Notes under the pieces: model-generated | What the model saw: only the letters and a program-made list of their open reading frames with translations | The model's database searches: none | What the model was told of the DNA's origin: nothing | Source of the DNA: Deltaproteobacteria bacterium | Lineage (GTDB): Bacteria; Myxococcota_A; JAADFL01 | Direction of reading: 5' to 3' | Assembly: GCA_013152945.1 (NCBI GenBank) | Contig: JAADFL010000049.1 | Location: forward strand, 1-29,968 | DNA length: 29,968 nucleotides | Translations under genes and position numbers: made by a program | Part shown: positions 3,052 through 18,715 of the stretch, in pieces | How positions within the stretch are numbered: the first letter of the stretch is position 1 | Layout: each line of letters opens with the position of its first letter

Positions 3052-3705
3052 CTATGCCTCCCTCATCCTTTTAACCCCTTCTTCAGGACCGATTACTACG
3101 AGTATGTCACTGTCTTTTACCTTGTGATCAGCCCCGGGGGATATTACCGTGCGTTCGGGCACTAATTCCTTTACTGCCAGCACCTGGACCCCGTATCGTT
3201 TTCCAGGATCCAATTCTGCAAGAGAACGGCCCACGATTCTCTTGGAGGGAGCCAATTCCACCAAGCTGAAGCCCGATGGCAGGGAAAGATAGTAAAGTAC
3301 ATTTTCCGAGCAAAGCCTGCGGGCGAGTTGAAACGCTCTTTCCTGCTCCGGGAAGACCACGTGAGTCGCTCCGATACGTCTCAATATTTCAGCATGATCT
3401 TCATCCAGGGCTTTTGCAACGATCTGCGGCACACCCAGCCTGGTGAGATGCAGGACTACTCTTGTGACGGCATCCATGCTGCCTCCCAGGCTGACCACTA
3501 CCACGTCCATCTTGTCCACGCCCATGGCCACAAGATTGTCCCTTTGAGTCGCGTCGGAAACCATGGCCTTGTCCACTTCGGGTTGGACCGCCTTGGCCCG
3601 GTCCGGATCGCCGTCGATGGCTATTACGTATCGGCCCAGCCTGCTCAACTCGAGAGCCATGGTCATTCCGAATTTGCCGAGGCCGATGACAGCATGCTTT
3701 TTCAT
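3052..3705 (-). CDS. TrkA/KtrA-type K+ transport regulator, first copy
   Basis: This 217-residue single-RCK protein has the Rossmann motif GLGKFG at residues 8-13 and Asp31 at the end of strand two. A TrkA-C domain follows in the last 80 residues (FSLVELAPSKRIVGRSLAELD and onward). It starts 10 bases after the stop of the KtrB-like channel gene and is followed two bases later by a second RCK gene, so channel and regulators are made together. It should form the cytosolic gating ring of the channel, alone or mixed with its neighbour. The two RCK proteins are clearly related but quite diverged, which suggests an old duplication or a two-subunit ring. Confidence 0.92.
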   Translation of the reverse strand: MKKHAVIGLGKFGMTMALELSRLGRYVIAIDGDPDRAKAVQPEVDKAMVSDATQRDNLVAMGVDKMDVVVVSLGGSMDAVTRVVLHLTRLGVPQIVAKALDEDHAEILRRIGATHVVFPEQERAFQLARRLCSENVLYYLSLPSGFSLVELAPSKRIVGRSLAELDPGKRYGVQVLAVKELVPERTVISPGADHKVKDSDILVVIGPEEGVKRMREA

Positions 3706-3715
3706 CGAGCTGGCC

Positions 3716-5074
3716 TCATCCTACCACCACGTTTTCTTCTGCATACTGGAACCTGCCTTTCTTTTCACCGGGTCCGAGGGCCATGGCAAGAGTCAATGGC
3801 CCGAGCCGGCCCGCCAGCATGGTGAATACTATAATAATTTTACCCACAGGGGAAAGATTGGATGTAATGCCGGTAGAGAGCCCTACAGTGCCGAATGCGG
3901 ACATGACTTCGAAAAAGAGCTCCATGAAGGTGCCGCCCCCGCCCCTGTGGGGGACGGATGAAACTTCGGCAGCCATCAAGAGGAAGGTCATGATTGTTAC
4001 GAATACAAAAGAGAGCATGATGATCGCCAGGGCCTTTGAGATAGTACGTTCCGGTATGGTCCGCTGGAAAATGTTCACGGTGTGCCTGGATTTGAGCCCT
4101 CCCCTGAACATTGATGCCACTATGGCCACGGTGCTCGTCTTGACTCCTCCACCGCAGGAACCCGGACTGGCGCCGATGAACATCAATATCATGGTAAGGA
4201 AGAGAGACGTATTTGTGAGCATCGAGTAATCCAGGGTGTTGAAACCGGCCGTCCTGGCGGTAATGGACTGGAAAAAAGAAGCCATCACCTGCTCTCCAAC
4301 CGGGAGTTGCTCCAGGGTGTTGTTCCTTTCGAACAACCAGATGCCGATTGCTCCGCCGATTATCAGAATGGCGGTCGTGGAAAGAACCACCTCGGTATGA
4401 AGCGTCAGGCGGACCGTTTTTCCCTTTCTTCTCCTGGTCCAGGCCTTCAACATGTCCTGAAGAACCAGGAAACCGATTCCTCCAAGAACTATCAGGAACA
4501 TTATGGTGACGTTTATTATGAAATCTCCCCTATAATGAATAAAACTGTCCGAGTACAGAGAGAAACCGGCATTGCAAAACGCTGAAACGCTGTGGAAAAT
4601 TCCCGAATAGAGAGCTTGCTCAAAGGGCATATGGCTTGAAAATCCAAGGGATAAGAAAAGTGCTCCCACAGCCTCTATAGTCAAGGTGAAGATGAATACG
4701 TTGCGAACCATGGCAGTAATGGAAGACCGTCTCGTGTTGCCCAGGGTGGAAGACAACACGTCCTGGTTGCGGAAAGAAAGCCTTTTGCCAAGGAGCACCA
4801 AAAAGATGCTGGAGAATGTCATGATGCCGAGCCCGCCGAGTTGTATCAGCGCAAGCACGGTACCCTGCCCGAAGGTGGATAACTTGGAGCCCGTATCCAC
4901 GACTATCAACCCGGTTACACACGTCGCCGATGTTGCAGTGAACAAGGCATCGACCCATGAAAGAGGATCACCCCGGCTGGCCCAAGGCATTGCCAGAAGC
5001 ACGGCGCCTGCAAGTATCACAACCGAGAATGATAACAAGAGTGTCTGTGCTGGTTTCAGGGCGGGAAGTTTCAA
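3716..5074 (-). CDS. TrkH/KtrB family potassium uptake protein
   Basis: This 452-residue inner-membrane protein has the four pore repeats of the Trk/Ktr/HKT superfamily. The filter loops can be read as SATCVTGL (residues 49-56), SAFCNAGFS, TARTAGFNT and SAFGTVGLSTG, each flanked by hydrophobic helices. Length fits KtrB better than the longer TrkH proteins. Start choice: TTG at 5074, because a GGAGG lies five bases upstream and the first hydrophobic helix begins right after a short basic N-terminus. It is the first gene of a likely four-gene unit (channel, two RCK regulators, HgdC-like activase). In known Ktr systems uptake is often coupled to or stimulated by Na+; that is family knowledge and cannot be read from this sequence. 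Confidence 0.93.
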   Translation of the reverse strand: MKLPALKPAQTLLLSFSVVILAGAVLLAMPWASRGDPLSWVDALFTATSATCVTGLIVVDTGSKLSTFGQGTVLALIQLGGLGIMTFSSIFLVLLGKRLSFRNQDVLSSTLGNTRRSSITAMVRNVFIFTLTIEAVGALFLSLGFSSHMPFEQALYSGIFHSVSAFCNAGFSLYSDSFIHYRGDFIINVTIMFLIVLGGIGFLVLQDMLKAWTRRRKGKTVRLTLHTEVVLSTTAILIIGGAIGIWLFERNNTLEQLPVGEQVMASFFQSITARTAGFNTLDYSMLTNTSLFLTMILMFIGASPGSCGGGVKTSTVAIVASMFRGGLKSRHTVNIFQRTIPERTISKALAIIMLSFVFVTIMTFLLMAAEVSSVPHRGGGGTFMELFFEVMSAFGTVGLSTGITSNLSPVGKIIIVFTMLAGRLGPLTLAMALGPGEKKGRFQYAEENVVVG

Positions 5075-5087
5075 CCGGTCCTCCGAC

Positions 5088-5117
5088 CCCGGCCGGACTA
5101 CACAATAGACGGCCGGG
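5088..5117 (-). promoter_or_regulatory. GC-rich hairpin in the leader of the K+ channel gene
   Basis: CCCGGCCG (5088-5095) pairs with CGGCCGGG (5110-5117) around a 14-base loop. It begins 13 bases upstream of the channel start codon and just before the GGAGG ribosome site. No T run follows on the minus strand, so it is not a classical terminator. It could influence translation or protect the mRNA end. Confidence 0.4.
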
Positions 5118-5220
5118 CCTCAAGAATGTTGTGATTCTAACCTGGTTGAACACCACCGAGTCAAGGCTAGAGTCGTTGCCGATAGAGTTTTCCGTTATAA
5201 CGCTGAGCGATCGGAGTGAC

Positions 5221-5280
5221 CGGCAAGGCGCAACAACGAAGTAATACCTCCAGGTATTTCGAGCAAGAGTAACGCAGCCG
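5221..5280. repeat. Interrupted palindrome in the intergenic region (REP-like candidate)
   Basis: The 254 bases between the decarboxylase beta and K+ channel genes hold no gene. They contain two 28-base arms around a TCCA centre. The inner six pairs (AATACC/GGTATT) and outer four (CGGC/GCCG) match exactly, the rest only in part. Beyond the palindrome a similar motif, gagagcttcgaggtccggc, echoes the left flank near 5206-5224. This layout is like a dispersed extragenic repeat. I see no second copy in this window, so repetition in the genome is an expectation only. Confidence 0.4.
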
Positions 5281-5328
5281 AGAGCTTCGAGGTCCGGCTG
5301 GATGCGAAAAATATTTTCGGCACCGGCT

Positions 5329-6459
5329 CTAGAACAAACCCAGGAAGTAGCCGGCTGCCACGGCCGAACCGATTACGCCCGCTGCGTTGGGCCCCATGGC
5401 GTGCATCAGGAGGTAATTCTTCTTGTTCTCTTTTTGCCCCATGTAGTGAACCACCCTGGCAGCCATGGGCACTGCAGACACGCCGGCTGCACCCAACATC
5501 GGATTGAACGGCTTCTTGCTGAACCATGACATCACCTTTCCAAGCAATACACCGCCTGCAGTGCCGAAACCAAAGGCGCACAGGCCCAGGAAAAGGACCA
5601 GCAATGTATCGGGTTCCATTACCCGGTCCGCGGGCATGGATGCACCTACTCCGAGCATGAGCAGTATGGTCACTATGTTGACGAATTCATTTTGAGCCGT
5701 CTTGGTGAGCCTGTTCACAACGCCGCTTTCCCTGAAAAGGTTTCCCAGGAACAAGAGTCCGACAAGGGGAGCGCTTCTTGGAATCATCAGGATGATGAAG
5801 ATCGGCACGAATATGGCGAAAAAGATCTTCTCCTTTTTCGATACCGGCCTCAACATCGGCTTCATGTAGATCTTCCTTTCTCTCCCGGAGGTCAGCAACC
5901 TGATGATTGGCGGCTGAATCAATGCCACCATGGCCATGTACGAGTATGCGGCGGTGGCTGTTATTCCCATGATGTGCGGAGCGAGTCTTCCCGTCGTAAA
6001 AATGGTGGTGGGTCCGTCGGCGCCGCCTATTATGCCGATGGAACATGCCTCGGGTATGCTGAAGCCATAGGCGACAGCGCCGAGGAATGCCACATAAATG
6101 CCGAGTTGTGCCGCCGCTCCAAGTATAAAAGCCTTTGGATCAGCTATCAAAGGACCGAAATCCGTCAATGTACCTATACAGAAGAAAATGAGCTGCGGCA
6201 AAATCATGTATTGGTACAGGCCGAACTTGAGCAAGATGCCAAGGAAACCGGCGGATCCCATCGGCTGGCCCGCCGCCGGCTGGACCATAAGTCCTGTAAT
6301 TGGAAGATTGGCCAGGATCATGCCTGCGCCGATTGGCAGGAGTTCAAGAGGCTCCCACTCTTTGACGATTGCCAAAGTAATGAAGCTGAGCCCGGCGATT
6401 ATCATAATGGCTTGGCCCAGAGTCAGGCTTGAAAAACCGGTTTGCAGGCCAATGCTCAT
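5329..6459 (-). CDS. Na+-translocating decarboxylase beta subunit (OadB/GcdB family)
   Basis: This 376-residue, very hydrophobic protein matches the beta subunit of oxaloacetate, glutaconyl-CoA and methylmalonyl-CoA decarboxylases, which couple carboxybiotin decarboxylation to Na+ export. Family signatures include TDFGPLIADP (residues 99-108) and IGGADGPT (144-151), where Asp148 corresponds to the Na+/H+-binding aspartate of the family. GVGASMPAD and a late PMAARVVHYMGQ stretch also fit. The start overlaps the stop of the gamma-like subunit gene by four bases. No biotin carrier or carboxyltransferase (alpha) subunit is encoded in the window, so the substrate cannot be told; the catalytic part must be encoded elsewhere. 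Family is very sure, the exact complex is not. Confidence 0.93.
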   Translation of the reverse strand: MSIGLQTGFSSLTLGQAIMIIAGLSFITLAIVKEWEPLELLPIGAGMILANLPITGLMVQPAAGQPMGSAGFLGILLKFGLYQYMILPQLIFFCIGTLTDFGPLIADPKAFILGAAAQLGIYVAFLGAVAYGFSIPEACSIGIIGGADGPTTIFTTGRLAPHIMGITATAAYSYMAMVALIQPPIIRLLTSGRERKIYMKPMLRPVSKKEKIFFAIFVPIFIILMIPRSAPLVGLLFLGNLFRESGVVNRLTKTAQNEFVNIVTILLMLGVGASMPADRVMEPDTLLVLFLGLCAFGFGTAGGVLLGKVMSWFSKKPFNPMLGAAGVSAVPMAARVVHYMGQKENKKNYLLMHAMGPNAAGVIGSAVAAGYFLGLF

Positions 6460-6650
6460 GAAGCGACTCCGGATTTATTGTGGTCTTCAGCCAAGCTTGT
6501 ACTCTCTTTTTTCACGGAATTCTTTTTCTTGTCCAATGCCATGAATACCTTGCCAGAGATCCATGTTGTAAAAGCTATTATTGCCATCACTCCGAACACG
6601 ATACCAAGGCCCGTGCCCGTAATTACCAAGGCTTGGCTGAATTCATTCAT
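6456..6650 (-). CDS. Small OadG-like gamma subunit of Na+-pumping decarboxylase
   Basis: This 64-residue protein has one membrane helix near the N-terminus (about residues 8-32, ALVITGTGLGIVFGVMAIIA) and a polar Lys/Glu-rich tail, the build of OadG/GcdD subunits that hold the decarboxylase complex together. ATG at 6650 is preferred over the upstream GTG at 6671 because GGAG lies at proper spacing before it and the helix then begins at the usual place. It overlaps the beta subunit gene by four bases, so the two are translationally coupled. About 80 bases separate it from the exchanger gene upstream, with no clear terminator. Confidence 0.85.
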   Translation of the reverse strand: MNEFSQALVITGTGLGIVFGVMAIIAFTTWISGKVFMALDKKKNSVKKESTSLAEDHNKSGVAS

Positions 6651-6729
6651 TGAACAACTCCGTTTAATCACTACGTGAGTTTCGAAAAAAACAACTTTTT
6701 CTCTAAACCCTTTTCTCTGCTGATTCTCT

Positions 6730-7665
6730 TTACCAACTAAAGATATCCAGTGTCCAGCGTATTGCTCCGGCCAATACCAGCAACAGGCCTTCCATGCGCG
6801 TCAATCTCCAGCCTGTTCTCATGAATGCCACGGCCATAACGCACATGGCCAGAAGCATCCACATGCTTGAACCGGCTTCCCGGACAACGCCCATCGGCTT
6901 GATTAGGCCTGCCGTTCCGAGAACTCCAAGGAGGTTGAAGAGATCCGATCCTATCAAATTACCCAGCGATATGCTTGATTTACCCTTGACGGCAGCCATG
7001 AGGGAGGTGGCCAGCTCAGGGGCCGAGGTTCCTGCTGCAACAATGGTTACCGCTATTACCCACTCGGAAATGCCGAGTACCCTTGCTATGCTGGAAGCGG
7101 AATCCACAAGCAGGTCACCTCCTCCTACGACACAAGCTATTCCGATTAGAAGTTTTGCGCCGTCCCTTATGCCGGCCTTATCATTACCCACGGCCTTGTA
7201 TTTCCTGTCTCTTCCCCGCCAGAGTAGAAACAGGTAGGATACCAGGCCGAGAAGGAGGATGCCTGCTTCCCACCTGGCAAGAAATCTATCCCTGAAGAAA
7301 AAAATAAGAAGGGAGGCTGTTAGTATCAACAAGAGTCCGTCACGGTATACTACTTCCCTTGATGTCTTCAGGGTTCCGAACAGGGCGCATCCTCCCAGGA
7401 TGAAGCCGAGGTTGAATATGTTGGAGCCTACTATGTTTCCTACGGAAATATCGGCGTGACCCTGGAACGCCGCCGCTACTGTGACTGCGAACTCAGGCGC
7501 TGATGTGCCGAATGCAACTATTGTCAATCCTATGGTCAAATCCGAGAGACCAAGGGTCTTGCCGATAACGGATGCCCCTTCTATGAGCCATTCCGCACCC
7601 CTCCATAAAAGAGCTACGGACAAGATCAACAGCAGTATGTCTAAAGCCGATTTAACCATTGTCAT
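6730..7665 (-). CDS. Na+/Ca2+ exchanger, CaCA superfamily (YrbG-like)
   Basis: This 311-residue inner-membrane protein shows the two inverted alpha repeats of calcium/sodium antiporters. Repeat one is VAFGTSAPEF (residues 50-59) followed by GNIVGSNIFN (76-85). Repeat two, past residue 200, is VAAGTSAPEL followed by GNLIGSDLFN. The acidic residues in GTSAPE coordinate the ions in this family. About ten hydrophobic segments can be counted. It lies 24 bases after a barrel-like envelope gene and before the Na+ pump subunits. Together with the Na+ pump it suggests sodium-gradient use, here for calcium export. The start is not marked by a clear ribosome site; ATG at 7659 is an alternative. Confidence 0.93.
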   Translation of the reverse strand: MTMVKSALDILLLILSVALLWRGAEWLIEGASVIGKTLGLSDLTIGLTIVAFGTSAPEFAVTVAAAFQGHADISVGNIVGSNIFNLGFILGGCALFGTLKTSREVVYRDGLLLILTASLLIFFFRDRFLARWEAGILLLGLVSYLFLLWRGRDRKYKAVGNDKAGIRDGAKLLIGIACVVGGGDLLVDSASSIARVLGISEWVIAVTIVAAGTSAPELATSLMAAVKGKSSISLGNLIGSDLFNLLGVLGTAGLIKPMGVVREAGSSMWMLLAMCVMAVAFMRTGWRLTRMEGLLLVLAGAIRWTLDIFSW

Positions 7666-8538: not shown

Positions 8539-9123
8539 CTACCTGTTGCCTGCTGCCGGAAGTTGTTTTAGAGTCATCACATAAGGATACAGAGATGTCA
8601 CCGACAGGAGAGTAACGCCGCCAAGGAGTGCATAGCAGACGCTGCCGGTCCATATCTCCCAGGTCTTTTGCGAAATCGAGCCAAGTATAAAGGGATGTAA
8701 ACCCAGCGTGGTGACTATGATCTGGGACACGATACTTTGGGTTACGGTTTTGGCCTTGCCGATTTTTTTTGCCGCTACAACTATTCCCCTGGCATTACAG
8801 TAGGGCCTTAGAAAAGCGTTTTGGAATGATTCTCGTATTACTATCAATAATAACATCCATAGGGGCATGAGGCCCACCCAGGTAAAACAAAAAAACACAG
8901 TGACGAAGAAGGTGCTGTCAGCAATGGGATCGAGGAATTTTCCAAGGTCTGAAATCTCGCCTCGCTTTCTGGCGATCTTGCCGTCCATGACGTCTGAAAA
9001 CGCGGCCCACCACAATAGTGCCAGGCAAACCCACTTGCCGGCCGTTCCAAGGAACAAGAAAGACAAAAGGTAAATCGGCGCCGCTGCGAGCCTGGATACG
9101 GTCAGCTTGGTCGAAGTATTCAT
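8539..9123 (-). CDS. pgsA: CDP-alcohol phosphatidyltransferase, PgsA-like
   Basis: This 194-residue membrane protein carries the complete CDP-alcohol phosphotransferase motif D-x2-D-G-x2-A-R-x8-G-x3-D-x3-D: Asp44, Asp47-Gly48, Ala51-Arg52, Gly61, Asp65 and Asp69. The start MNTSTKLTVSRLAAAP is the usual N-terminus of phosphatidylglycerophosphate synthases, so ATG 9123 is chosen although the frame stays open for another 82 codons upstream. The likely reaction is CDP-diacylglycerol plus glycerol-3-phosphate to phosphatidylglycerophosphate in the inner membrane. Other alcohols (inositol, serine) share the motif, so substrate is less certain than family. A TTGACA box and a terminator lie just upstream, and a barrel-like protein gene follows. 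Confidence 0.85.
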   Translation of the reverse strand: MNTSTKLTVSRLAAAPIYLLSFLFLGTAGKWVCLALLWWAAFSDVMDGKIARKRGEISDLGKFLDPIADSTFFVTVFFCFTWVGLMPLWMLLLIVIRESFQNAFLRPYCNARGIVVAAKKIGKAKTVTQSIVSQIIVTTLGLHPFILGSISQKTWEIWTGSVCYALLGGVTLLSVTSLYPYVMTLKQLPAAGNR

Positions 9124-9130
9124 GGCCTGC

Positions 9131-9159
9131 AAGGTACCTGTGGCAGGACATGATGTCAA
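9131..9159 (-). promoter_or_regulatory. Candidate sigma70 promoter of pgsA
   Basis: On the minus strand a perfect TTGACA (9159-9154) is followed after 17 bases by TACCTT (9136-9131), a weak -10. Transcription would begin within a few bases of the pgsA ATG at 9123, giving a leaderless or nearly leaderless mRNA. No good ribosome site is visible before that ATG, which agrees. It lies just after a minus-strand terminator. Confidence 0.45.
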
Positions 9160-9182
9160 GAAAACCCGGTTCCCTGGCTCGA

Positions 9183-9219
9183 AACAAAAAAGCCGGCTCC
9201 ACAATTCATACTCCGGCTT
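9183..9219 (-). terminator. Minus-strand intrinsic terminator upstream of pgsA
   Basis: Read on the minus strand, AAGCCGG (9219-9213) and CCGGCTT (9196-9190) form a seven-pair stem with a 16-base loop, and a run TTTTTGTT follows directly. It ends about 60 bases before the pgsA start codon. Nothing recognised is transcribed into it, so it would end a short leader or small RNA starting in the 9220-9357 gap, or antisense transcription from the gene at 9358. Confidence 0.6.
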
Positions 9220-9286
9220 ATCACCAAGCTGTCGGAAGTTGCGAAATGCATTGGACGCGCACTGACTTGTGATCTCAACATGCAAA

Positions 9287-9317
9287 TATCTTGCGTATCC
9301 GGGATATCCTTGGTATC
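9287..9317. promoter_or_regulatory. Four TATC motifs at exact 9-base spacing, operator-like
   Basis: TATC occurs at 9287, 9296, 9305 and 9314 with five variable bases between copies. The array also contains the dyads TATCCgGGATA (9296-9306) and GGATATCC (9303-9310). It lies between pgsA (minus) and the large operon starting at 9358 (plus), 41 bases before that start. Its place and symmetry fit a transcription factor site, but no consensus is recognised. Confidence 0.4.
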
Positions 9318-9357
9318 CAAATCGTGAAAAGAGATATCGGCGGGATAGTGGTGTGTC

Positions 9358-12300
9358 TTGACGGAACATTGCATCAATAAATCCATATCGAGCCTGGTTC
9401 TTGCTTTTTCTCTCTTTTTTGCCACTGCCTTTTCACCAATGCTCGTTCGTGCGTCATTGGATTCTGCCGGGGATTCTGCCGGGGATTCTGCCGGGGATTC
9501 TGCCGGGACGGTGGAAGAACAACGCCTGGACGATTTGTCACGACAGGTAAAGGCTGAAGAAAGCAAAGCCACAACAGCCTTGTTACTGCACAAGATGTTT
9601 GATCTCTGGAGCTTTCTTCCAGGTGAGGAAAAACTCGTGCAGGTGTTGGCAGAGGTGGGAGCATCACAAAATGCTCACCCGCTCGTAAGGGACCATGCAA
9701 GGTACCTGGCGGCCAGACTTGCAAGGATCCGCGGTGATATAAAAACAGAAAGATCGCTCCTGTCCAGGATCGGGATTGTCCTTGACTACTATGTCTTGGG
9801 ACCTTTCTCCAACCAGGGAACAAGGTCCTTTCTTGCCAGGAAGAAGCCCGAGTTTGAAGGATTCAAACCCGGCAAGGATTACAAAGGAAAGGATAGGCCG
9901 GTAAAGTGGAGGAAATTTCCTGTTGCACTGGTGTCCGGGGGATCTGTTGACCTTGCCTATTACCTGAACCAGAAAAAAGAGGCATGCGCATACCTGGCTA
10001 CTGATATTGAAGCCGGGAGGAAAGTTCCGGCTTCATTTCGTATAGGTTTTTCCGGGCCGGCGGCTCTTTGGTTGTCCGGCAATCTCGTGTTTGCCTCCAC
10101 GGACAGGCACTATGCAGCATTAGACCAGGCGGCTGTTCCCGTGGTCCTGCAAAAGGGCTCGAATCCGGTTCTCGTCAAGACCTGCGCCGGTGACCAGGGC
10201 TGGGAAGTGATATTCAGGGTAACAAGGCCCAGGGGAGAGCCTGTTCCGGGCGTGTCTGTATCACTTGGGCCCAACCAGACAGGGCCGGTCGAACCGGGTG
10301 TGGGTCGGGTCGGGTTGCCTTTTGCAAGGAAGGCAGGACCGAACGAGACCAGGCCGGCAGACCTGGTCGACAAGCTGAGAAAGGAGGCGGAGTCGGGAAT
10401 ACCAAGTGCGGAACAGATACTGGATTTGGCTTATGCACTAAAAAAATTCATGCCATTCGACATGGAGCAGGAACTTGAAGTCAAGGCAGCCGAGACAGCA
10501 GTGGCCATGGCGCAGGACAATGCCCGTATTCTTTGTGATGCATCCAAATTGTTCAGGGATCCGAACAAGGCGAGAGGCATCCTGGAGATTGCACAGCATG
10601 TGAAACCCGAAGATGTCCGGGTTCTTTCATTGTCGGCAGAGCATGCATTATCGGCAGGTAGGTTTTTCGAGGCGGTTGACTTGGCAAAAAAGGCTGTTTC
10701 AGCGGATCCGGTGGACATGGAGGCCAGGCTGGTCCTGGCCAGAGTAATGTCTGCGGCGGGTTTGCCTGAAATAGGTATCAAGAACCTCTTGACCTTGGGA
10801 AATTACCGTTTACAGGCATTGGAGCCGGCCGTCCTGTTGCTCTCCCTGGCCGAACAGGCAGGGCTTGATAATATGGCGGATCAATGGGCGGAGAAAATAC
10901 TGGAAAGGGCTCCGGGCAACCGGGAGGCGTTGCAAAGGGTATTGGATCGTAATTTTGCTGCAGGTAATTTGGATGAATATCTGAAGAATTTGAGAAAGGC
11001 CCTGGAAATCAACCCTTCGGCCGAGGAGCTTTGGATTGATCTGGCCGGGGTCCTTCAGGCTAACAAGAGAGGGAGAGAGGCTCTCAAAACATTGGACAGG
11101 GCTATCGAATTGTCTCCCCAATCAGCGGAACTACATACATCGCTCGGAAGGATTTTGGATCTTCTCGGCAGGCACCAAAGAGCCGAATCCGAGTACAAGG
11201 CCAGTCTCGAATTAAGACCGCAGAACCCGGATTTAAGGGATTATCTCGAATTCAAATCACCGGCAACAAAGGGATTTTTCGAACGGTTCGAGAAAAAGGG
11301 AACTGCCTTTGTCCGGAATCTGGCACAAAATGTTCCTGTAAGTAAATATCCGGCGGACAAGTTGTTCGATCTCATTGTTACAAGGGTTCATGACAATGGG
11401 CTTGCATCCAGGTTCGAACAACTGGTAGTCAGGGTGAACAACAGCAACGGAGTTCGAAACTACAGTAGCAGAATGATACAATTTTCCCCGGAAAATCAAA
11501 GGGTTCGTATCTTGGCCGCACGGATATACCGCCCTGACGGCACAATTACAGAGGCATCCACTGTTTATGAGAAGTCTCTTTCAGATCCGTCCCACCGGAC
11601 TTATTACGATGTCAGGGCCAAGGTTGTAGAACTTCCTGAATTACACCCTGGAGATGTAGTGGAGCTGGAGACAATGATATCGGACCGGGGTGAAAACCTG
11701 TTCTCAAAGGAGTTCGGTGACATCGTGTCTTTTCAGGATGTTGTGCCGATCCACAGGATCCGGTACGTATTGTTGATGCCGTCCGGCCGAAAGGTATTCT
11801 TCAGCCGGTTGCCGAGGGGAGTAAAAAAAGAAGATCTGAAGCCACAAGAACAGGGCTTCAATGTATTTGCCTTTGAAGCTCGAGATATACCTCCCATAGA
11901 GCCGGAGCCGAATATGCCGGGCCTGGCCGAGGTATCCAGGTTACTGCATGTTTCCACGAGTGAGAGCTGGATCAAGCTTGGTAAGTGGTACGGAGGCCTG
12001 ATAAAGAATCAATTTTCACCGGATCAGGATCTCAAGAAACAGGTTGCCATGCTGACACAAGGTTTGACCGGTGCCAGGGCCAAGGTGGAAGCAATATATC
12101 AGTTCGTAGTCAGCAAGACGAGGTACGTGGCACTCGAGTTCGGCCGTCACAGCTATAAGCCATATCCTGCGTACCAGGTTTTGTCCAGGGGCTTTGGAGA
12201 TTGCAAGGACAAGGCTGTCTTGATGATTACCATGTTGAAACAAGCTGGAGTCAAGGCATATATGGCGTTGTTGAGAACCAGGCAACTCGGGTCATTGTCC

Positions 12301-13161
12301 CGCAGGCCGGCTTCTTTGAAACTGTTGAATCATGCAATAGTGTACGTCCCGGCCTTGAAGATGTTTATGGATCCGACTGCGGAGTGGTCCGGGCCGTACG
12401 AATTGCCGCCTGTAGATCAAGGTGTTTTCACCCTCCTGGTGTCACCCGATGGAGGGGCGGAAGTCGCTGTCACTCCCGTATCATCGCCCGCCGACAATGT
12501 TGAAGACCGGACCGAGGTGATTATCCTTGGTGCGGACGGAAGCGCTTTGATTAAAGGAAAGACGGTTGTAAAGGGCGGTTATGCGGGGGTTCAAAGAAGG
12601 CGTTACGAATCCAAGGCCGACAGGAAGGACAAGTACGAAGAGGCCATCTCATCCCTGTTGCCCGGAGCCAGAGTGGAAAAATTCAGTGTAAGCAATCCCA
12701 GGGACTTGTTGTCCCCATTCACAATGAATTACAAAGTCCAGGTTCCGAACTATGCAAAGCAGGACAATGGATCTTTGTCCCTGGTGTTTTCAGGTCACCC
12801 GTTAAGCTTTTCCCGGAATTTTGCAAGGCTTTCATCCAGGAGATATGATTTGCTGATTAACCTGCCCTTTCTGTACAAAGCCAGGGAATCAATCACAATT
12901 CCCAAGAAGTTTTCTTGTCATGTTCCACAAGGAGGAAAGGTTGAATCTCGTTTCGGCCAGGCATCTTTGACTTTTAGTTGCAGGGGGAGAAACATAGAGA
13001 TCAAGGGGGAAATGGCTATCCGGGTAAGAAGGGTAAAGGCCGCTGATTACCAGGCATTCAGGAAATTTGTTGGGCAGGTTGACGATCTCCTCTCAAGGAC
13101 TGTACGACTTGATATGCCGGATGACAAAGGTAAGCACGAAAAAGCCGGGGGCGATTCGTGA
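9358..13161 (+). CDS. Secreted TPR / DUF3857 / transglutaminase-like protein with intact triad
   Basis: This 1267-residue protein begins with a signal peptide (basic start, hydrophobic LVLAFSLFFATAF, cleavage near VRA-S at 32). An in-frame TAG at 9346 leaves TTG 9358 as the first start that keeps this peptide. A DSAG repeat of four units follows directly. Next come an N-terminal beta-rich region with a 'YVLGPFSN' motif (about residues 135-300), TPR-like helices (about 400-640), a DUF3857 domain (about 690-870) and a transglutaminase-like core. The core triad is readable: Cys949 in GDCKDKA, His992 in LNHAIVY, Asp1005 in FMDPTAE. A beta-rich C-terminal domain ends the protein. The family's substrates are unknown; amide bond formation or cleavage in the periplasm is the general expectation. 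Its stop overlaps the next, paralogous gene by four bases. Confidence 0.88.
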   Translation: MTEHCINKSISSLVLAFSLFFATAFSPMLVRASLDSAGDSAGDSAGDSAGTVEEQRLDDLSRQVKAEESKATTALLLHKMFDLWSFLPGEEKLVQVLAEVGASQNAHPLVRDHARYLAARLARIRGDIKTERSLLSRIGIVLDYYVLGPFSNQGTRSFLARKKPEFEGFKPGKDYKGKDRPVKWRKFPVALVSGGSVDLAYYLNQKKEACAYLATDIEAGRKVPASFRIGFSGPAALWLSGNLVFASTDRHYAALDQAAVPVVLQKGSNPVLVKTCAGDQGWEVIFRVTRPRGEPVPGVSVSLGPNQTGPVEPGVGRVGLPFARKAGPNETRPADLVDKLRKEAESGIPSAEQILDLAYALKKFMPFDMEQELEVKAAETAVAMAQDNARILCDASKLFRDPNKARGILEIAQHVKPEDVRVLSLSAEHALSAGRFFEAVDLAKKAVSADPVDMEARLVLARVMSAAGLPEIGIKNLLTLGNYRLQALEPAVLLLSLAEQAGLDNMADQWAEKILERAPGNREALQRVLDRNFAAGNLDEYLKNLRKALEINPSAEELWIDLAGVLQANKRGREALKTLDRAIELSPQSAELHTSLGRILDLLGRHQRAESEYKASLELRPQNPDLRDYLEFKSPATKGFFERFEKKGTAFVRNLAQNVPVSKYPADKLFDLIVTRVHDNGLASRFEQLVVRVNNSNGVRNYSSRMIQFSPENQRVRILAARIYRPDGTITEASTVYEKSLSDPSHRTYYDVRAKVVELPELHPGDVVELETMISDRGENLFSKEFGDIVSFQDVVPIHRIRYVLLMPSGRKVFFSRLPRGVKKEDLKPQEQGFNVFAFEARDIPPIEPEPNMPGLAEVSRLLHVSTSESWIKLGKWYGGLIKNQFSPDQDLKKQVAMLTQGLTGARAKVEAIYQFVVSKTRYVALEFGRHSYKPYPAYQVLSRGFGDCKDKAVLMITMLKQAGVKAYMALLRTRQLGSLSRRPASLKLLNHAIVYVPALKMFMDPTAEWSGPYELPPVDQGVFTLLVSPDGGAEVAVTPVSSPADNVEDRTEVIILGADGSALIKGKTVVKGGYAGVQRRRYESKADRKDKYEEAISSLLPGARVEKFSVSNPRDLLSPFTMNYKVQVPNYAKQDNGSLSLVFSGHPLSFSRNFARLSSRRYDLLINLPFLYKARESITIPKKFSCHVPQGGKVESRFGQASLTFSCRGRNIEIKGEMAIRVRRVKAADYQAFRKFVGQVDDLLSRTVRLDMPDDKGKHEKAGGDS
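9460..9507 (+). repeat. Four perfect 12-base tandem repeats (DSAG)
   Basis: The unit gattctgccggg occurs four times without mismatch and encodes DSAG each time. The array begins two codons after the predicted signal peptidase site. Perfect identity at the DNA level suggests recent expansion; a change in copy number would keep the frame. Confidence 0.95.
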
Positions 13162-16100
13162 AACAAGCAACAAAAGCATTACCGGCCTTGTTTGTTGTTA
13201 TGGCAGTGGTGTCATGTGGCCGGTCCGGTTTACTTGTGCCGGCATTTTCTCCGTTCGATTCTTCTCTTATGGCAGTGCCGTCGAAAAGGGCTGCAGTACA
13301 AGGCTGGCAACTTGTACTCGCTGGAAACAGGGTGGAAGCCATGCGTTTCTTCAAGAGAGGGGGAAGCGCCGAGGCATTGGCAGGCAGGGCTATTCTTGAT
13401 TATAGTGCAGGAAATTACCTTGATGAAGGCGATGCATGGCTGGAATTGATTTCCAAATTTGCGTTCCATCCACTGGCAATGGTTGCTGCAGCGAGGCTGG
13501 AGCGTCTGACCAGGACCGGTACACGGTTCGACAGTGATATTGTAAGAGTGGCAACCAGAACACTGAACCAAACAGTAAAAATGGATCCATGGGCCAGGTA
13601 CTGGCTGAGGGTGATGCTGGCGCGGGTGATGGACCGCTCCAAGAGGAGCCGGGAGGCCGGAAAAATCAGGTCTGGTATTGGTTATCTGAAAAATTGGTCA
13701 CAGACCGGTCCCTTTGGCAGGTATCCCAGCCTTGAGAGCTTTGATGCATATTGGCCGAATCCGAAAGCGGGAAAGTCAGGGAAAAATGTTACAGGCCCGG
13801 GTTTGCCTAAAAATCCGTTCTTTACCGCCGCAAGGATCTTTCATCCGGCTGAAACCAACCTGGGCCAGGTTGTTTTCCATTCAGTGCCTGCCAGGGGAGG
13901 CGTTTTTTACGCACGAACCGTATTTGAAAACAGCAAGACAGAGACAGCCTGGTTCTGCATGTCGAGTTCAAGCTCGTTTGCCCTGTTTCTGGATGGAAAG
14001 AAGTTGTTCGCCCGGGACAGGTACAGGAATTACACTCCCGACGCAAGGTGCGTGCCGGTGAAACTTGCTCCTGGAAATCACTTGGTAGTGACGTCCGTGA
14101 TATCGGACATGATATCTCCTTCATTCACTTTGTTTGTTCAGCCGTTGGACAAGGGCGCAGAACCATTACGCCAGCCAAAACGCTATACCAGTGATTTCAC
14201 GGGCCGTCGTTGGGCCGGGTTCGACCGGCAAACAGGATATCTTTATACGGAAAAACATTTTTCCACTGAAATTTCCCTTTATCCAAAGAACCCGTTGCCG
14301 AGGCTGTGGTTTGCACTTGTAGAGCTTTTCTTGGGGGATGAAGTCGGCGCGGAAAAGAGTATGAGCAAGGCCTTGGAAATTGCAGGGCATTCCGGTGTTA
14401 TTGATTTCCTTGCGGCCAGGATGGTGCTGGTAGACCATGCATTGCCTGTGCAGGAAAGAAGGGCTGCGGCAAGAGCAGGATTCGAGACCTGCCGCAAGGA
14501 GGACCCGGGCGCGGCCGCCTGTCTGTACTGGCTTTCTATTCTTGAAGGTATGGAGGGACGGCCGAAAAAACAATTGAGCCTCTTGAAACAAGCTTTGGCC
14601 AATCAGCCTGACGCATGGCTGTGGTTGATTCGACTTCATAAGATATTGGCCCGCATGGGCTGGAAGGCCGAGGCTGAGGATGCTTTGGATTCGCTCAAAG
14701 CCGTGGATCCCGGTGCTGCTGTTGATTTGCAGCGAAGATGGGCCAACAGGAACAGGCGATTTCATGAATCCGGTGAGTTGACGAAACTCTGGGCTTCCAT
14801 GAATCCAAGGAGCATTGTTGCTGCAAGGAAATCGGCAAGGGCTGGGCAAGTGACCACTGCCTTGGCAGAGGTGGAGCGAATCTTGTCCGGCATGGGGCCG
14901 TCACACTGGTTGCTTAAATTCAAGGCCGGTCTGCTGGCGGAAATTGCGGAATATGGAAAAGCGGCCGGAATACTTCTGAAAATGCCGTGGGAATTACCAT
15001 CCGACCTTAAAAAAGCGGCCATGTACGAGGCAATGGCCGGGGACATGAAAGAAGCATACAAGAATATCCTGCGAGGCGTCAGACTGCAGCCCGAAGGAGG
15101 CGGGTTGACATTGCAGGCTGCGATCATGTCAGGGGTGACTCCTTTGCAGGAATTTCGTTTGGATGCGGAAAAAATACTCTCCGGCTTGAAGGCTGTGGAC
15201 ATCGGTGCAGCTTCACATGGCGCTTCGGCGGAGTTGTTGCTGGATCAATATGTGTTGGATTTATCGCGGCCCGGTCCGGGTATAGAACTAGTGCATACAC
15301 TGAGGAGGATTCTGACCAAGAAGGCAGTACAGGAAATGGGTGAGGTAAGGGTGCCGCAGGATGCATGGTTGTTGAACTTGAGGGTGATAAAACCGGACGG
15401 ACATATTCTCGAGCCCGAGGATATCGCCGGCAAGGATACGGTAAGTTTGCCCGGTCTCGAACCCGGCGATGCAATTGATTTCGAGTACCTGTCAGAGGCG
15501 CCGTATTCTTCGGTTTTTGCAGGAGGCTTTCTTTCCGATGCCTTCTTTTTCAGAACCAACAGGGAGCCGGTTCGACATTCCCAGGTTATAATCAGGGCCG
15601 GCCCGGGACAGGATCTGGAAATAAATCTTTTCAACCATGCCAAGGAGCCGGTAGTAAAAGACAATCCGGATGGAGGTAAGACATATACATGGGAAGCCCA
15701 TGACCTGGATCCAATTCCGCCCGAACCGGTTTCGGTCCCGGCAATGGAATACCTGCCCTACCTGAAGGTGGGAATGAATGTAACCAGGCGGGATCTTTAT
15801 AAGGTCTTGTCTTCCCTGGTGCCTGAACGGGTCAGGTTGGATCGGAGAATACGGGAGTTTGCTGAAAAAGCGGTGCATGGCATGAATGCCCCTAGGGACA
15901 AGACCAGGGCCGTATTCAAAGCAGTATTGAAAAAGGTGATATCGGATTCCGGCGGTATCAGGAGCTCTGCCGCATATACCCTGGCCAGGGGAAAGGGCAG
16001 CAGGGTGATGCTGTTGACTGCGGCATTGAGGGCTGTGGGCGTACCCGCCGACGTGGTGGCTGTAAAGCCGTTTAGCGCTCCGAGACCGCATGCAACGGAT

Positions 16101-16955
16101 AAAGGGCAAAAACCGCTACCCTCGCCCGGCGAATACACGTCATTTGTGGTCAGGGCCAGGCCGGACCGGCGTTCTCCCGTTTGGCTCGATGTTGGATCTA
16201 GGTTCGGCGAGTTCGATTACCTGCGTCCGGGTTTCCAGGAAAGTCCGGCCATCGTGCTTTCACCGCAAGGTCCTGCAGAAATAACGACTCCGGCCTATCC
16301 GGCATCCAGGGAGAGACACGAAGTTGCTTTGCAAGTGGATATACACGAGGACGGGTCGGCCCGGTTAAAGGGAGTTGAACTTTTCCGTGGCTGGGAAGGC
16401 GCTGTATTTCGATCCGGCCTCGCGAGGTTGACCGAAAAACAGGTGGGCCAGGTCCTCCAGGTCGGGCTTGGAAAATTTTTTCCAGGGATGAACCTGAAGA
16501 AATTCGACATCAAGGACCTCGAAGCCGGCTGGGACCAAACCCCGTTGAGAGTGGAATACGAGCTGGAGATTCCATTGTTTGCAAGGCTCAAGGATCACTC
16601 CCTTGTCATAGAGAAGGGTTTGTACCCGGTTAAACTTGGACAGATGTTCCTGAGGGCGGCCGAGCCTAAACTGCCTTTGCTGGTAAGCGTGTCAAGCAAT
16701 GTCCACCAGGAAGTAGTAATTAAGGTGCCGCCTGGATACATTGCCTTACCTGTGGGCAAGCTGAGCTTGAAAAGCCGTTTTGGAGAATACGAGTTGAAAA
16801 CAGAGGTGCTGGCCCATGGAATCGGCATGGACAGGCGTCTAGTCATGCCCATGGCCAGGGTGGAGCCCGGGAATTTTGCTGAATTTGCAAATTTTTGCCA
16901 CAAGGTCGATCAGAGCGAATCCAGGGAAATTGATTTTGAAAAGAGACTGAAGTGA
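13158..16955 (+). CDS. Lipoprotein paralogue with TPR / DUF3857 / degenerate transglutaminase-like domain
   Basis: This 1265-residue protein starts at GTG 13158, overlapping the stop of its paralogue by four bases (GTGA). A lipoprotein signal ends at Cys20 (AVVSC). The order of parts follows the upstream protein: a beta-rich region with 'GPFGRYP' near residue 180, TPR-like helices in the middle, a DUF3857-like part (about 690-860), and a transglutaminase-like core at about 900-1015. In the core, GDCKDKAVLM of the paralogue becomes GSRVML here: three residues and the catalytic Cys are lost (Ser948). The His position reads YTSFVV (Thr), and only the Asp (Asp1011 in WLDVGS) remains. It is therefore probably catalytically dead, perhaps a scaffold or regulator of its neighbour. 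The reading frame is undamaged over 3.8 kb, so it is not a pseudogene. Confidence 0.85.
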   Translation: MKQATKALPALFVVMAVVSCGRSGLLVPAFSPFDSSLMAVPSKRAAVQGWQLVLAGNRVEAMRFFKRGGSAEALAGRAILDYSAGNYLDEGDAWLELISKFAFHPLAMVAAARLERLTRTGTRFDSDIVRVATRTLNQTVKMDPWARYWLRVMLARVMDRSKRSREAGKIRSGIGYLKNWSQTGPFGRYPSLESFDAYWPNPKAGKSGKNVTGPGLPKNPFFTAARIFHPAETNLGQVVFHSVPARGGVFYARTVFENSKTETAWFCMSSSSSFALFLDGKKLFARDRYRNYTPDARCVPVKLAPGNHLVVTSVISDMISPSFTLFVQPLDKGAEPLRQPKRYTSDFTGRRWAGFDRQTGYLYTEKHFSTEISLYPKNPLPRLWFALVELFLGDEVGAEKSMSKALEIAGHSGVIDFLAARMVLVDHALPVQERRAAARAGFETCRKEDPGAAACLYWLSILEGMEGRPKKQLSLLKQALANQPDAWLWLIRLHKILARMGWKAEAEDALDSLKAVDPGAAVDLQRRWANRNRRFHESGELTKLWASMNPRSIVAARKSARAGQVTTALAEVERILSGMGPSHWLLKFKAGLLAEIAEYGKAAGILLKMPWELPSDLKKAAMYEAMAGDMKEAYKNILRGVRLQPEGGGLTLQAAIMSGVTPLQEFRLDAEKILSGLKAVDIGAASHGASAELLLDQYVLDLSRPGPGIELVHTLRRILTKKAVQEMGEVRVPQDAWLLNLRVIKPDGHILEPEDIAGKDTVSLPGLEPGDAIDFEYLSEAPYSSVFAGGFLSDAFFFRTNREPVRHSQVIIRAGPGQDLEINLFNHAKEPVVKDNPDGGKTYTWEAHDLDPIPPEPVSVPAMEYLPYLKVGMNVTRRDLYKVLSSLVPERVRLDRRIREFAEKAVHGMNAPRDKTRAVFKAVLKKVISDSGGIRSSAAYTLARGKGSRVMLLTAALRAVGVPADVVAVKPFSAPRPHATDKGQKPLPSPGEYTSFVVRARPDRRSPVWLDVGSRFGEFDYLRPGFQESPAIVLSPQGPAEITTPAYPASRERHEVALQVDIHEDGSARLKGVELFRGWEGAVFRSGLARLTEKQVGQVLQVGLGKFFPGMNLKKFDIKDLEAGWDQTPLRVEYELEIPLFARLKDHSLVIEKGLYPVKLGQMFLRAAEPKLPLLVSVSSNVHQEVVIKVPPGYIALPVGKLSLKSRFGEYELKTEVLAHGIGMDRRLVMPMARVEPGNFAEFANFCHKVDQSESREIDFEKRLK

Positions 16956-17122
16956 TAGTTGACTTGGTATCGTTGTATCGTCTGGTGTGAAATCCTGCAA
17001 CAGGTAGTGGCTCTCAGTCACGGAAAATAATGATTACCACTTGAAAATGCTGAAATAACAAGCCGGTGACTCTTGGCATGACCATTGCTGTAGTTATTGT
17101 TGCAAGTCAAGGAGGTGAATAC

Positions 17123-17740
17123 ATGAGGACGGTAGCTGTCTTTTTGTTTTGTATTTCTTTTCTTTTTACAGGTCTCGTGCCCGGGCAGGTTTCTGCCGGC
17201 ACTGGAACTCATTTTGCCCTGGAATTGGATGGAGGGGCTGCTTTCGGCCTTTCGTACGACGAATGCAAACCAGGTTATACTGCAGGTGCGTCATTCGGCC
17301 TGGGCGGCCGGCCGGGAGGCAGCCCGTTAGTGTTCTATTTTCTCACCGCGTACAAGAGAAACAACATGGAACTCGACGGAGGGCAGTTGAGCCTGGACCG
17401 TACTGTCAATTCGCTGCTGTTCGGCCCAAGGATGGTGTTGCCCTTGTTCTATGGATTGAGATTTTTTATTGAAGGCCTGATTGGGCCGGCATGGGTGAGT
17501 TCAAAATTGAGGGCCAAGTCCGACGTGTCGTTGGAGCAGGGCACGGAAACGAGATTTGCATACAGCCTGGCCGCCGGCTTCCAATATAGGATTATAGAGA
17601 GCCTGTCTATAGGGATTAAAGCCACCTATGCCGACGAGTACAAGGATGAGCAGGATCCGCTGGTGCTCTTGGTTAATGGTTCCGGGGGCGACCCGGGAAG
17701 GCGTGTAACAACCTCGGCCTTTGTGACTTTTCATTTCTAG
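17123..17740 (+). CDS. Small predicted outer-membrane beta-barrel protein
   Basis: This 205-residue protein starts at ATG 17123, preceded by a strong AGGAGGTG at good spacing; an upstream GTG at 17066 lacks such a site. A signal peptide (VAVFLFCISFLFTGLVPGQVSA-G) is followed by alternating-residue strands such as HFALELDGGAAFGLSY, FFIEGLIGPAWV and SLSIGIKATYADEY. It ends TSAFVTFHF with a terminal Phe, the classical barrel end. Eight strands would suit the length (OmpA/OmpW-like size). No specific family is recognised. It lies 167 bases after the pseudo-transglutaminase gene and 18 bases before the Cys-rich lipoprotein gene, and probably shares a transcript with the latter at least. Confidence 0.8.
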   Translation: MRTVAVFLFCISFLFTGLVPGQVSAGTGTHFALELDGGAAFGLSYDECKPGYTAGASFGLGGRPGGSPLVFYFLTAYKRNNMELDGGQLSLDRTVNSLLFGPRMVLPLFYGLRFFIEGLIGPAWVSSKLRAKSDVSLEQGTETRFAYSLAAGFQYRIIESLSIGIKATYADEYKDEQDPLVLLVNGSGGDPGRRVTTSAFVTFHF

Positions 17741-17758
17741 CCGAAAAGGGAGCATGTC

Positions 17759-18715
17759 ATGAGAGATGATTTTACCCCGGACAGAATGGCTGCCTGGGCC
17801 GGCATATTGTTGCTTGTGGCACTTGGCCTGTTGTGGTTGCAAGGGTGCGGGGAATCACGGACAAGGGGAAAGGCTTTTGTCAATGTATGCGGACCGGGCC
17901 AGGATGTGTCCCAGTGCCGGAGTTTTGACAACCTCCGGGTAAATACGGCATTTTTCTCCAGGGAGTGGTCCAAGTTCGGATCTTCGGGACTTGCTGTTTT
18001 TTTTGAACTGTCTTTGGGAGAGGGAGGGAGCGCGCCACAGGCGTTGGTATGGTTGGACATGGATTTGTCTACTGCCGGGCCCGAAGGCAAGAGTGTTGTT
18101 TCAGGCGATGATTTACAAGCGGAACTGCTGATACTCGATGGCCCGGAACATTCCAGGAAGTTAAAGGGGACAGGCGAGTTTCAGGTAGAGAAAAATAATC
18201 CTGGGGGCAGAAGCCCTCTGATCATAAGCGGCAACCTCTCCCTGAAATTCCCTGATCAAAATGGTGATACGTGGTTTGTAATCGGCGCCTTGATGACCGA
18301 CCGGCAGTCTGCGGGCGAGGGTCAAGAAACGGACGGACAGGAAAACATGCATGGCGGTTACTACTATGATGATTATTGCTATGACTGCTATGGGTGCGGC
18401 GGCGCATATTATGATCAAGACAGTAATGCAAGCGCGGATTCTTCCGGATGCGGGGGAGATGAAACCACGACTGACGACTCGGGTTGCCAGGGAGATGACA
18501 TGTCCGGTTCGAACAATTCCAATTATAATTCATCTTATGATTCATCCGGATGTAGCGGCGATTCTTCTGATTCCGGTTGCGAGGGGGATGCCAAGGCGGG
18601 CTCGCGGCCTTGCAAGGTCCATGGTCACAAACACGGCCGTTCCATGCCAGGGTTCCTGAGGATCCTTGTTCCCATGTTGCTGATATGGGCCATCAGGCAC
18701 GGCAAGAGGTACTAA
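17759..18715 (+). CDS. Lipoprotein with Tyr/Cys-rich region and DSGCxGD repeats, unknown family
   Basis: This 318-residue protein has a hydrophobic N-terminal segment ending in a lipobox, LQGC at Cys30. Residues about 35-195 look like one folded beta-rich domain. A striking low-complexity part follows: a Tyr/Asp/Cys cluster (YYYDDYCYDCYGCGG, about 200-215), then four copies of D-S-(S)-G-C-x-G-D at about residues 227-234, 240-246, 261-268 and 271-277, in a Ser/Asp/Asn linker. The end is a basic/His stretch (CKVHGHKHGR), a hydrophobic run FLRILVPMLLIWAI and a basic tail RHGKRY, the build of a C-terminal sorting or anchoring signal. The Cys/acid repeats could bind metal or form disulfide cross-links. 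I know no described family with this pattern. Confidence 0.8.
   Translation: MRDDFTPDRMAAWAGILLLVALGLLWLQGCGESRTRGKAFVNVCGPGQDVSQCRSFDNLRVNTAFFSREWSKFGSSGLAVFFELSLGEGGSAPQALVWLDMDLSTAGPEGKSVVSGDDLQAELLILDGPEHSRKLKGTGEFQVEKNNPGGRSPLIISGNLSLKFPDQNGDTWFVIGALMTDRQSAGEGQETDGQENMHGGYYYDDYCYDCYGCGGAYYDQDSNASADSSGCGGDETTTDDSGCQGDDMSGSNNSNYNSSYDSSGCSGDSSDSGCEGDAKAGSRPCKVHGHKHGRSMPGFLRILVPMLLIWAIRHGKRY

Follow-up and report, generated by a model that had tools for sequence, protein, structure and literature searches.

The window, by which we mean the whole stretch of 29,968 nucleotides that was analysed, carries two very large genes in tandem, here called A and B, whose features are collected in Table 1. 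The original prediction described them as overlapping by four bases, as almost equal in length and as sharing a domain order; the open reading frames are as described, and the shared order extends over almost the whole of both proteins. BLASTP aligned A with B at 22% identity over 561 aa (E 6e-21), and a profile-profile comparison of the A family with the B family aligned 1116 columns (probability 100%, E 1e-87), from which we conclude that the two are homologous, running from an N-terminal helical/beta-sandwich region through a TPR solenoid to a C-terminal beta domain.

Table 1. Positions in the window of genes A and B and of the features discussed in the text.
Feature	Position	Strand	Remarks
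Gene A	9358..13161	+	TTG start, 1267 aa; apparently catalytically intact DUF3857/transglutaminase-like protein; predicted signal peptide without lipobox
A N-terminal beta-sandwich domain, ~residues 144-302	9787..10263	+	AF2 model of A 30-690
A TPR superhelix, ~residues 336-633	10363..11256	+	Pfam TPR and structural matches
A DUF3857 domain, residues 680-847	11395..11898	+	Profile match, E 1.8e-30
A transglutaminase-like core, ~residues 898-1007	12049..12378	+	PF01841 profile match
A catalytic Cys949 codon	12202..12204	+	C in 98/98 A homologues
A catalytic His992 codon	12331..12333	+	H in 98/98 A homologues
A catalytic Asp1005 codon	12370..12372	+	D in 97/98 A homologues
GTGA, A stop overlapping B start	13158..13161	+	4-base overlap
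Gene B	13158..16955	+	GTG start, 1265 aa; predicted pseudo-transglutaminase DUF3857 lipoprotein
B lipoprotein signal peptide, ending VVSC20	13158..13217	+	Lipobox Cys invariant in 19 B homologues
B DUF3857 domain; H713, E729 and K759 conserved specifically in B	15291..15716	+	E 4.9e-13
B pseudo-transglutaminase domain, ~residues 900-1016	15855..16205	+	Model aligned to 3kd4_A and transglutaminases
B G947-S948-R949 where A has GDCKDK	15996..16004	+	Cys lost, 3-residue deletion; homologue alignment

Domains and signal peptides of the two proteins

DUF3857 (PF12969) scored 106.7 bits in A and 49.9 bits in B, both above the Pfam gathering score of 24.6, while Transglut_core (PF01841), with a gathering score of 23, was exceeded in A (33.3 bits) and fell short in B (16.0 bits, E 0.015). 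The TPR repeats of A were likewise above the Pfam cut-offs. DUF3858 (PF12970) reached 18.7 bits in A, under its gathering score of 27, and no profile match to it was listed for B, though the model of B spans the whole of the structure 3kd4_A. The AF2 model of residues 30-690 of A (pLDDT 89.5) matched mostly TPR proteins in a structure search, with Z of 17-18 between the TPR region and both consensus TPR proteins and the TPR of O-GlcNAc transferase, and the search returned no identity for the beta-sandwich domain. The model of residues 676-1265 of B (pLDDT 92.4) aligned with 3kd4_A at Z 19.2 and 4.0 Å over 465 residues, and its middle matched human transglutaminases and factor XIII at Z ~9. On this model the C-terminal half of B is predicted to have a transglutaminase-like fold, as the original prediction had it.

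The TTG of A is the sole in-frame start that yields a signal peptide; because it overlaps a divergent gene (8539-9369) and is preceded by no evident ribosome site, the exact start of A is uncertain. The lipobox pattern occurred in 5 of 87 A homologues. The lipobox noted originally in B is borne out by the invariance of its cysteine, and the strict pattern was present in 52 of 82 B homologues; many of the others have a Cys behind a hydrophobic stretch that the pattern missed, or a mis-set start. Some B proteins from Planctomycetota and Acidobacteriota have no lipobox. Since a few B proteins (L108, L115, L117 and L126) lack the lipobox Cys, anchoring of B in the membrane would not be universal. 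In E. coli lipoproteins, Asp at position +2 marks the protein for retention in the inner membrane, and it was seen at +2 in none of the 52 B homologues with a strict lipobox.

Four residues stand out in the B family: H713 is conserved in 79 of 81 homologues, E729 in 75, K759 in 73 and R949 in 67. A usually has Gln (Q688) at the position of H713, and H713, E729 and K759 are candidates for an interface or for binding a ligand. On the same strand, downstream of B (17066-18715 of the window), lie genes for a small protein resembling an outer-membrane beta-barrel, by a weak match below the cut-off, and for a 318-aa protein; they may form one operon with A and B here, and were not seen as conserved neighbours.

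Fate of the active site in A and B

The segment written GDCKDKAVLM in A reads GSRVML in B, which is three residues shorter between the flanking glycines and has R949 at the place of the Cys; B has lost the His as well. In all 98 A homologues this segment comprises 18 residues and contains the Cys; the Cys-His-Asp triad claimed for A is complete in 97 of them, the remaining one having a gap at the Asp. In 79 of 81 B homologues the segment has 15 residues, usually in the form GSR, GNR or GDR. A further 20 pairs from Planctomycetota gave the same picture, with 15 residues and no Cys in every B and GDCKD in 19 of the A proteins. Altogether, the catalytic Cys was present in 117 of 117 A homologues checked and in none of 101 B homologues, drawn from Myxococcota, Acidobacteriota and Planctomycetota, of which 99 share the deletion. 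As a test of the loss of Cys and His first noted in B, a B homologue with an intact Cys-His was sought among the 81 and among the 20 added from Planctomycetota, and none was found. Cys residues close by in 18 of the 81 were considered as the catalytic residue and rejected, because they sit at other places in the helix or past its end. Asp1011 of B, which had been listed as a retained feature, did not hold up as a feature of the family, since just 32 of about 80 B homologues have Asp at that position. By its residues, A is apparently a working enzyme.

In phylogenetic trees the A proteins form one clade and the B proteins another (SH-aLRT 99 for the single B clade), with inner branches that largely match. 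That the deletion is shared and that all B proteins fall in one clade indicates a single inactivation event, predating the divergence or exchange of the copies in these phyla. Identity among B homologues is only about 20%, and B has diverged faster than A. In five Myxococcaceae, dN/dS was 0.33-0.57 for B and 0.28-0.41 for A, values that are indicative only, as they come from simple NG86 counts on high-GC genes; they suggest that B is maintained under purifying selection. The reading frame of B, whose retention had already been remarked on in this genome, runs uninterrupted for 3.6-3.9 kb in virtually all genomes of the three phyla.

Co-occurrence and linkage of the pair

The survey covered 237 genomes of the window's phylum, which named relatives indicate to be Myxococcota. 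A occurred in 109 of them and B in 108; 105 had both, 4 had A only, 3 had B only and 125 had neither (Fisher p 4e-58, phi 0.94, the counts being of species, which are not independent events). A piece of B adjoins A in three of the four A-only genomes, and the A gene of the fourth stops about 300 bases short of the start of its contig; of the three B-only genes, two are cut off by a contig end and the third is that of genome G140. The pair was also detected, as judged by score, in roughly an eighth of the sampled Acidobacteriota and about a quarter of the sampled Planctomycetota.

Wherever the genes adjoin, A precedes B (98 of 98), and the stop of A overlaps the start of B by four bases, as ATGA or GTGA, in 47 of 67 homologous pairs. 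Six genomes (G107, G164, G174, G185, G198 and G210) have two complete A-B pairs, the genes having been duplicated as pairs. In 13 survey genomes, about one in eight of those with both genes, A and B are unlinked. When 18 named or metagenomic genomes without B beside A were searched, all 18 had B elsewhere, with the same dead motif; genera in which the two lie apart include Myxococcus, Corallococcus, Archangium, Polyangium and Minicystis. The original prediction of an old tandem duplication that left a maintained pseudo-enzyme in a functional pair is strongly supported by this co-occurrence and synteny.

No gene family generally accompanies the A-B pair as a conserved neighbour. At nine loci only (L035, L038, L088, L096, L097, L106, L113, L122 and L129), genes for an MglA-like GTPase and an MglB-like roadblock protein lie divergently just upstream of A, which may indicate a tie to polarity or gliding, or merely old synteny. 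The record BNCN01000002.1, titled Comamonas sp. KCTC 72670, has Myxococcaceae-like A and B genes in a 9 Mb genome, and its name looks wrong.

Proposed roles of the two proteins and related tandems

We consider it rather probable that A and B are an envelope enzyme/pseudo-enzyme pair, in which A is an exported Cys-His-Asp enzyme and B, usually a lipoprotein, anchors or regulates it. A would be exported and, to judge from its transglutaminase-type site, would hydrolyse or transfer an amide or peptide bond; the TPR superhelix and the N-terminal beta-sandwich probably hold the substrate and suggest a protein or glycoprotein. B would be translated together with A from the overlapping start, its own site having been disabled once, through the three-residue deletion and the loss of Cys and His. 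As a lipoprotein in most lineages, B could hold A at the membrane, and it may position or regulate A through the domains that the two have in common, the pair probably descending from a homodimer of which B now makes up one half. What the analysis establishes is the homology, the retention of the site in A and its loss in B, the predicted fold of the C-terminal half of B, the co-occurrence, the synteny and the selection; the export of A, the membrane location, contact between the proteins, the homodimer origin, the reaction and the direction of control are inferred, and so is any specific anchoring, scaffolding or regulation of A by B.

This reading is drawn from the presence of the site in all 117 A proteins and its loss in all 101 B proteins, the joint occurrence in 105 of 237 genomes, the invariant order, the six double pairs, the 47 overlaps, the matching trees, the dN/dS values, the second, short tandems described below and the retention of a dead B in the 18 unlinked genomes. 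The pair has been kept in at least three bacterial phyla, which suggests that the apparently working enzyme A requires its dead twin B. We counted against it the one in eight unlinked pairs, the faster divergence of B, the B proteins without a lipobox, the fact that activity of A is read from its residues, and the use of species counts.

The main rival, which we regard as unlikely, is that B gained a separate job after the duplication, for example binding a ligand or giving structure to the envelope as a lipoprotein, and acts in the same pathway as A without forming a complex with it, their adjacency reflecting the ancestral tandem and shared regulation. The survival of B in the 13 survey genomes and the 18 others in which it lies apart from A is what one would expect of such a pathway-linked job, as are its faster divergence and the conservation of H713, E729, K759 and R949 specifically in B; however, the near-perfect match between the presence and absence of A and B and the duplication of whole pairs in six genomes argue for a closer tie, and the frequent 4-base overlap fits stoichiometric co-translation. 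The same four residues, conserved above most of the protein, could also mean that B is an enzyme after all, its activity relying on a new site made up of different residues, such as H713, E729 and K759 of DUF3857 or R949 in the old pocket. We find this improbable, because they form no known catalytic motif, lie in the beta-rich DUF3857 domain and at the start of a helix and, being charged, would equally suit an interface. That B is a decaying paralogue on its way to becoming a pseudogene would agree with its lost active site and with the low identity among its homologues, but we give this hardly any credence: the frame is intact across three phyla, dN/dS is below 1, the predicted fold is of high confidence and the deletion is a single, shared and ancient one. 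Chance, or a pseudogene, is ruled out by conservation across the three phyla.

Enzyme/pseudo-enzyme pairs, in which an active and an inactive paralogue occur and are expressed together, are a familiar arrangement. In animals, erythrocyte membrane protein 4.2 is a dead transglutaminase homologue that serves as a membrane-associated structural partner. B resembles it in having a transglutaminase fold without the catalytic residue (structural match, Z 7.8-9.1), whereas protein 4.2 is eukaryotic, belongs to the transglutaminase 2/3 lineage, and has neither DUF3857 nor an active tandem partner. A itself is one of the TPR-DUF3857-transglutaminase proteins of myxobacteria and other bacteria that are annotated only as 'DUF3857 domain-containing protein'. 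The open-licence literature searched yielded no description of the pairing or function of A and B, nor of an enzyme/pseudo-enzyme pair in which a transglutaminase-type enzyme is matched by an equally large lipoprotein twin; the one mention of DUF3857 there places it next to lolA in Xanthomonas (PMC6341742). The two families are known as domains of unknown function. A widespread envelope enzyme family of no known function appears to have a dedicated dead twin, which offers a handle on that function, and pseudo-enzyme biology gains a bacterial case, inactivated by one datable deletion of three residues.

A second tandem, without TPRs, lies on another contig of the same genome (L166 3526-7664, G000:C9), again with a 4-base overlap. 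Its active member (5457-7664) adjoins a dead predicted lipoprotein of 644 aa (3526-5460) in which M, K and S replace the catalytic Cys, His and Asp. Short active/dead pairs also occur in two other Myxococcota genomes (G114 and G033; loci L173 and L174), and in Parabacteroides distasonis (NZ_OY725779.1, L162 5552-9107) an intact homologue is followed by a dead gene that encodes the protein of structure 3KD4. The four dead proteins of the short pairs group together in a single clade (SH-aLRT 97), and they lack the three-residue deletion of B. Their placement in the tree and the missing deletion first suggested a separate origin; a single clade of all dead proteins, short ones and B together, was not rejected (AU test p 0.51), so the short proteins and B may have been inactivated either once or independently.

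The 3KD4 protein (BDI_1141, DUF3857/DUF3858), deposited as a 'putative protease', resembles B in its three-domain fold, in missing the catalytic Cys, His and Asp, and in being encoded by the second gene of a tandem behind an intact first gene. It differs from B in having no TPR region, no three-residue deletion and an ordinary signal peptide instead of a lipobox, and its tandem has a 13 bp gap where A and B overlap. We tentatively propose, at somewhat less than even confidence, that tandem DUF3857 transglutaminase-like envelope enzymes are obligate enzyme/pseudo-enzyme pairs, with 3KD4 as a dead partner and with an ancient split that perhaps came before the long forms with TPRs parted from the short ones, and Bacteroidota from Myxococcota. 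If so, a misnamed solved structure would become the known half of a complex. Though labelled a plasmid, the Parabacteroides record looks like a chromosome, with genes for menaquinone and DNA repair.
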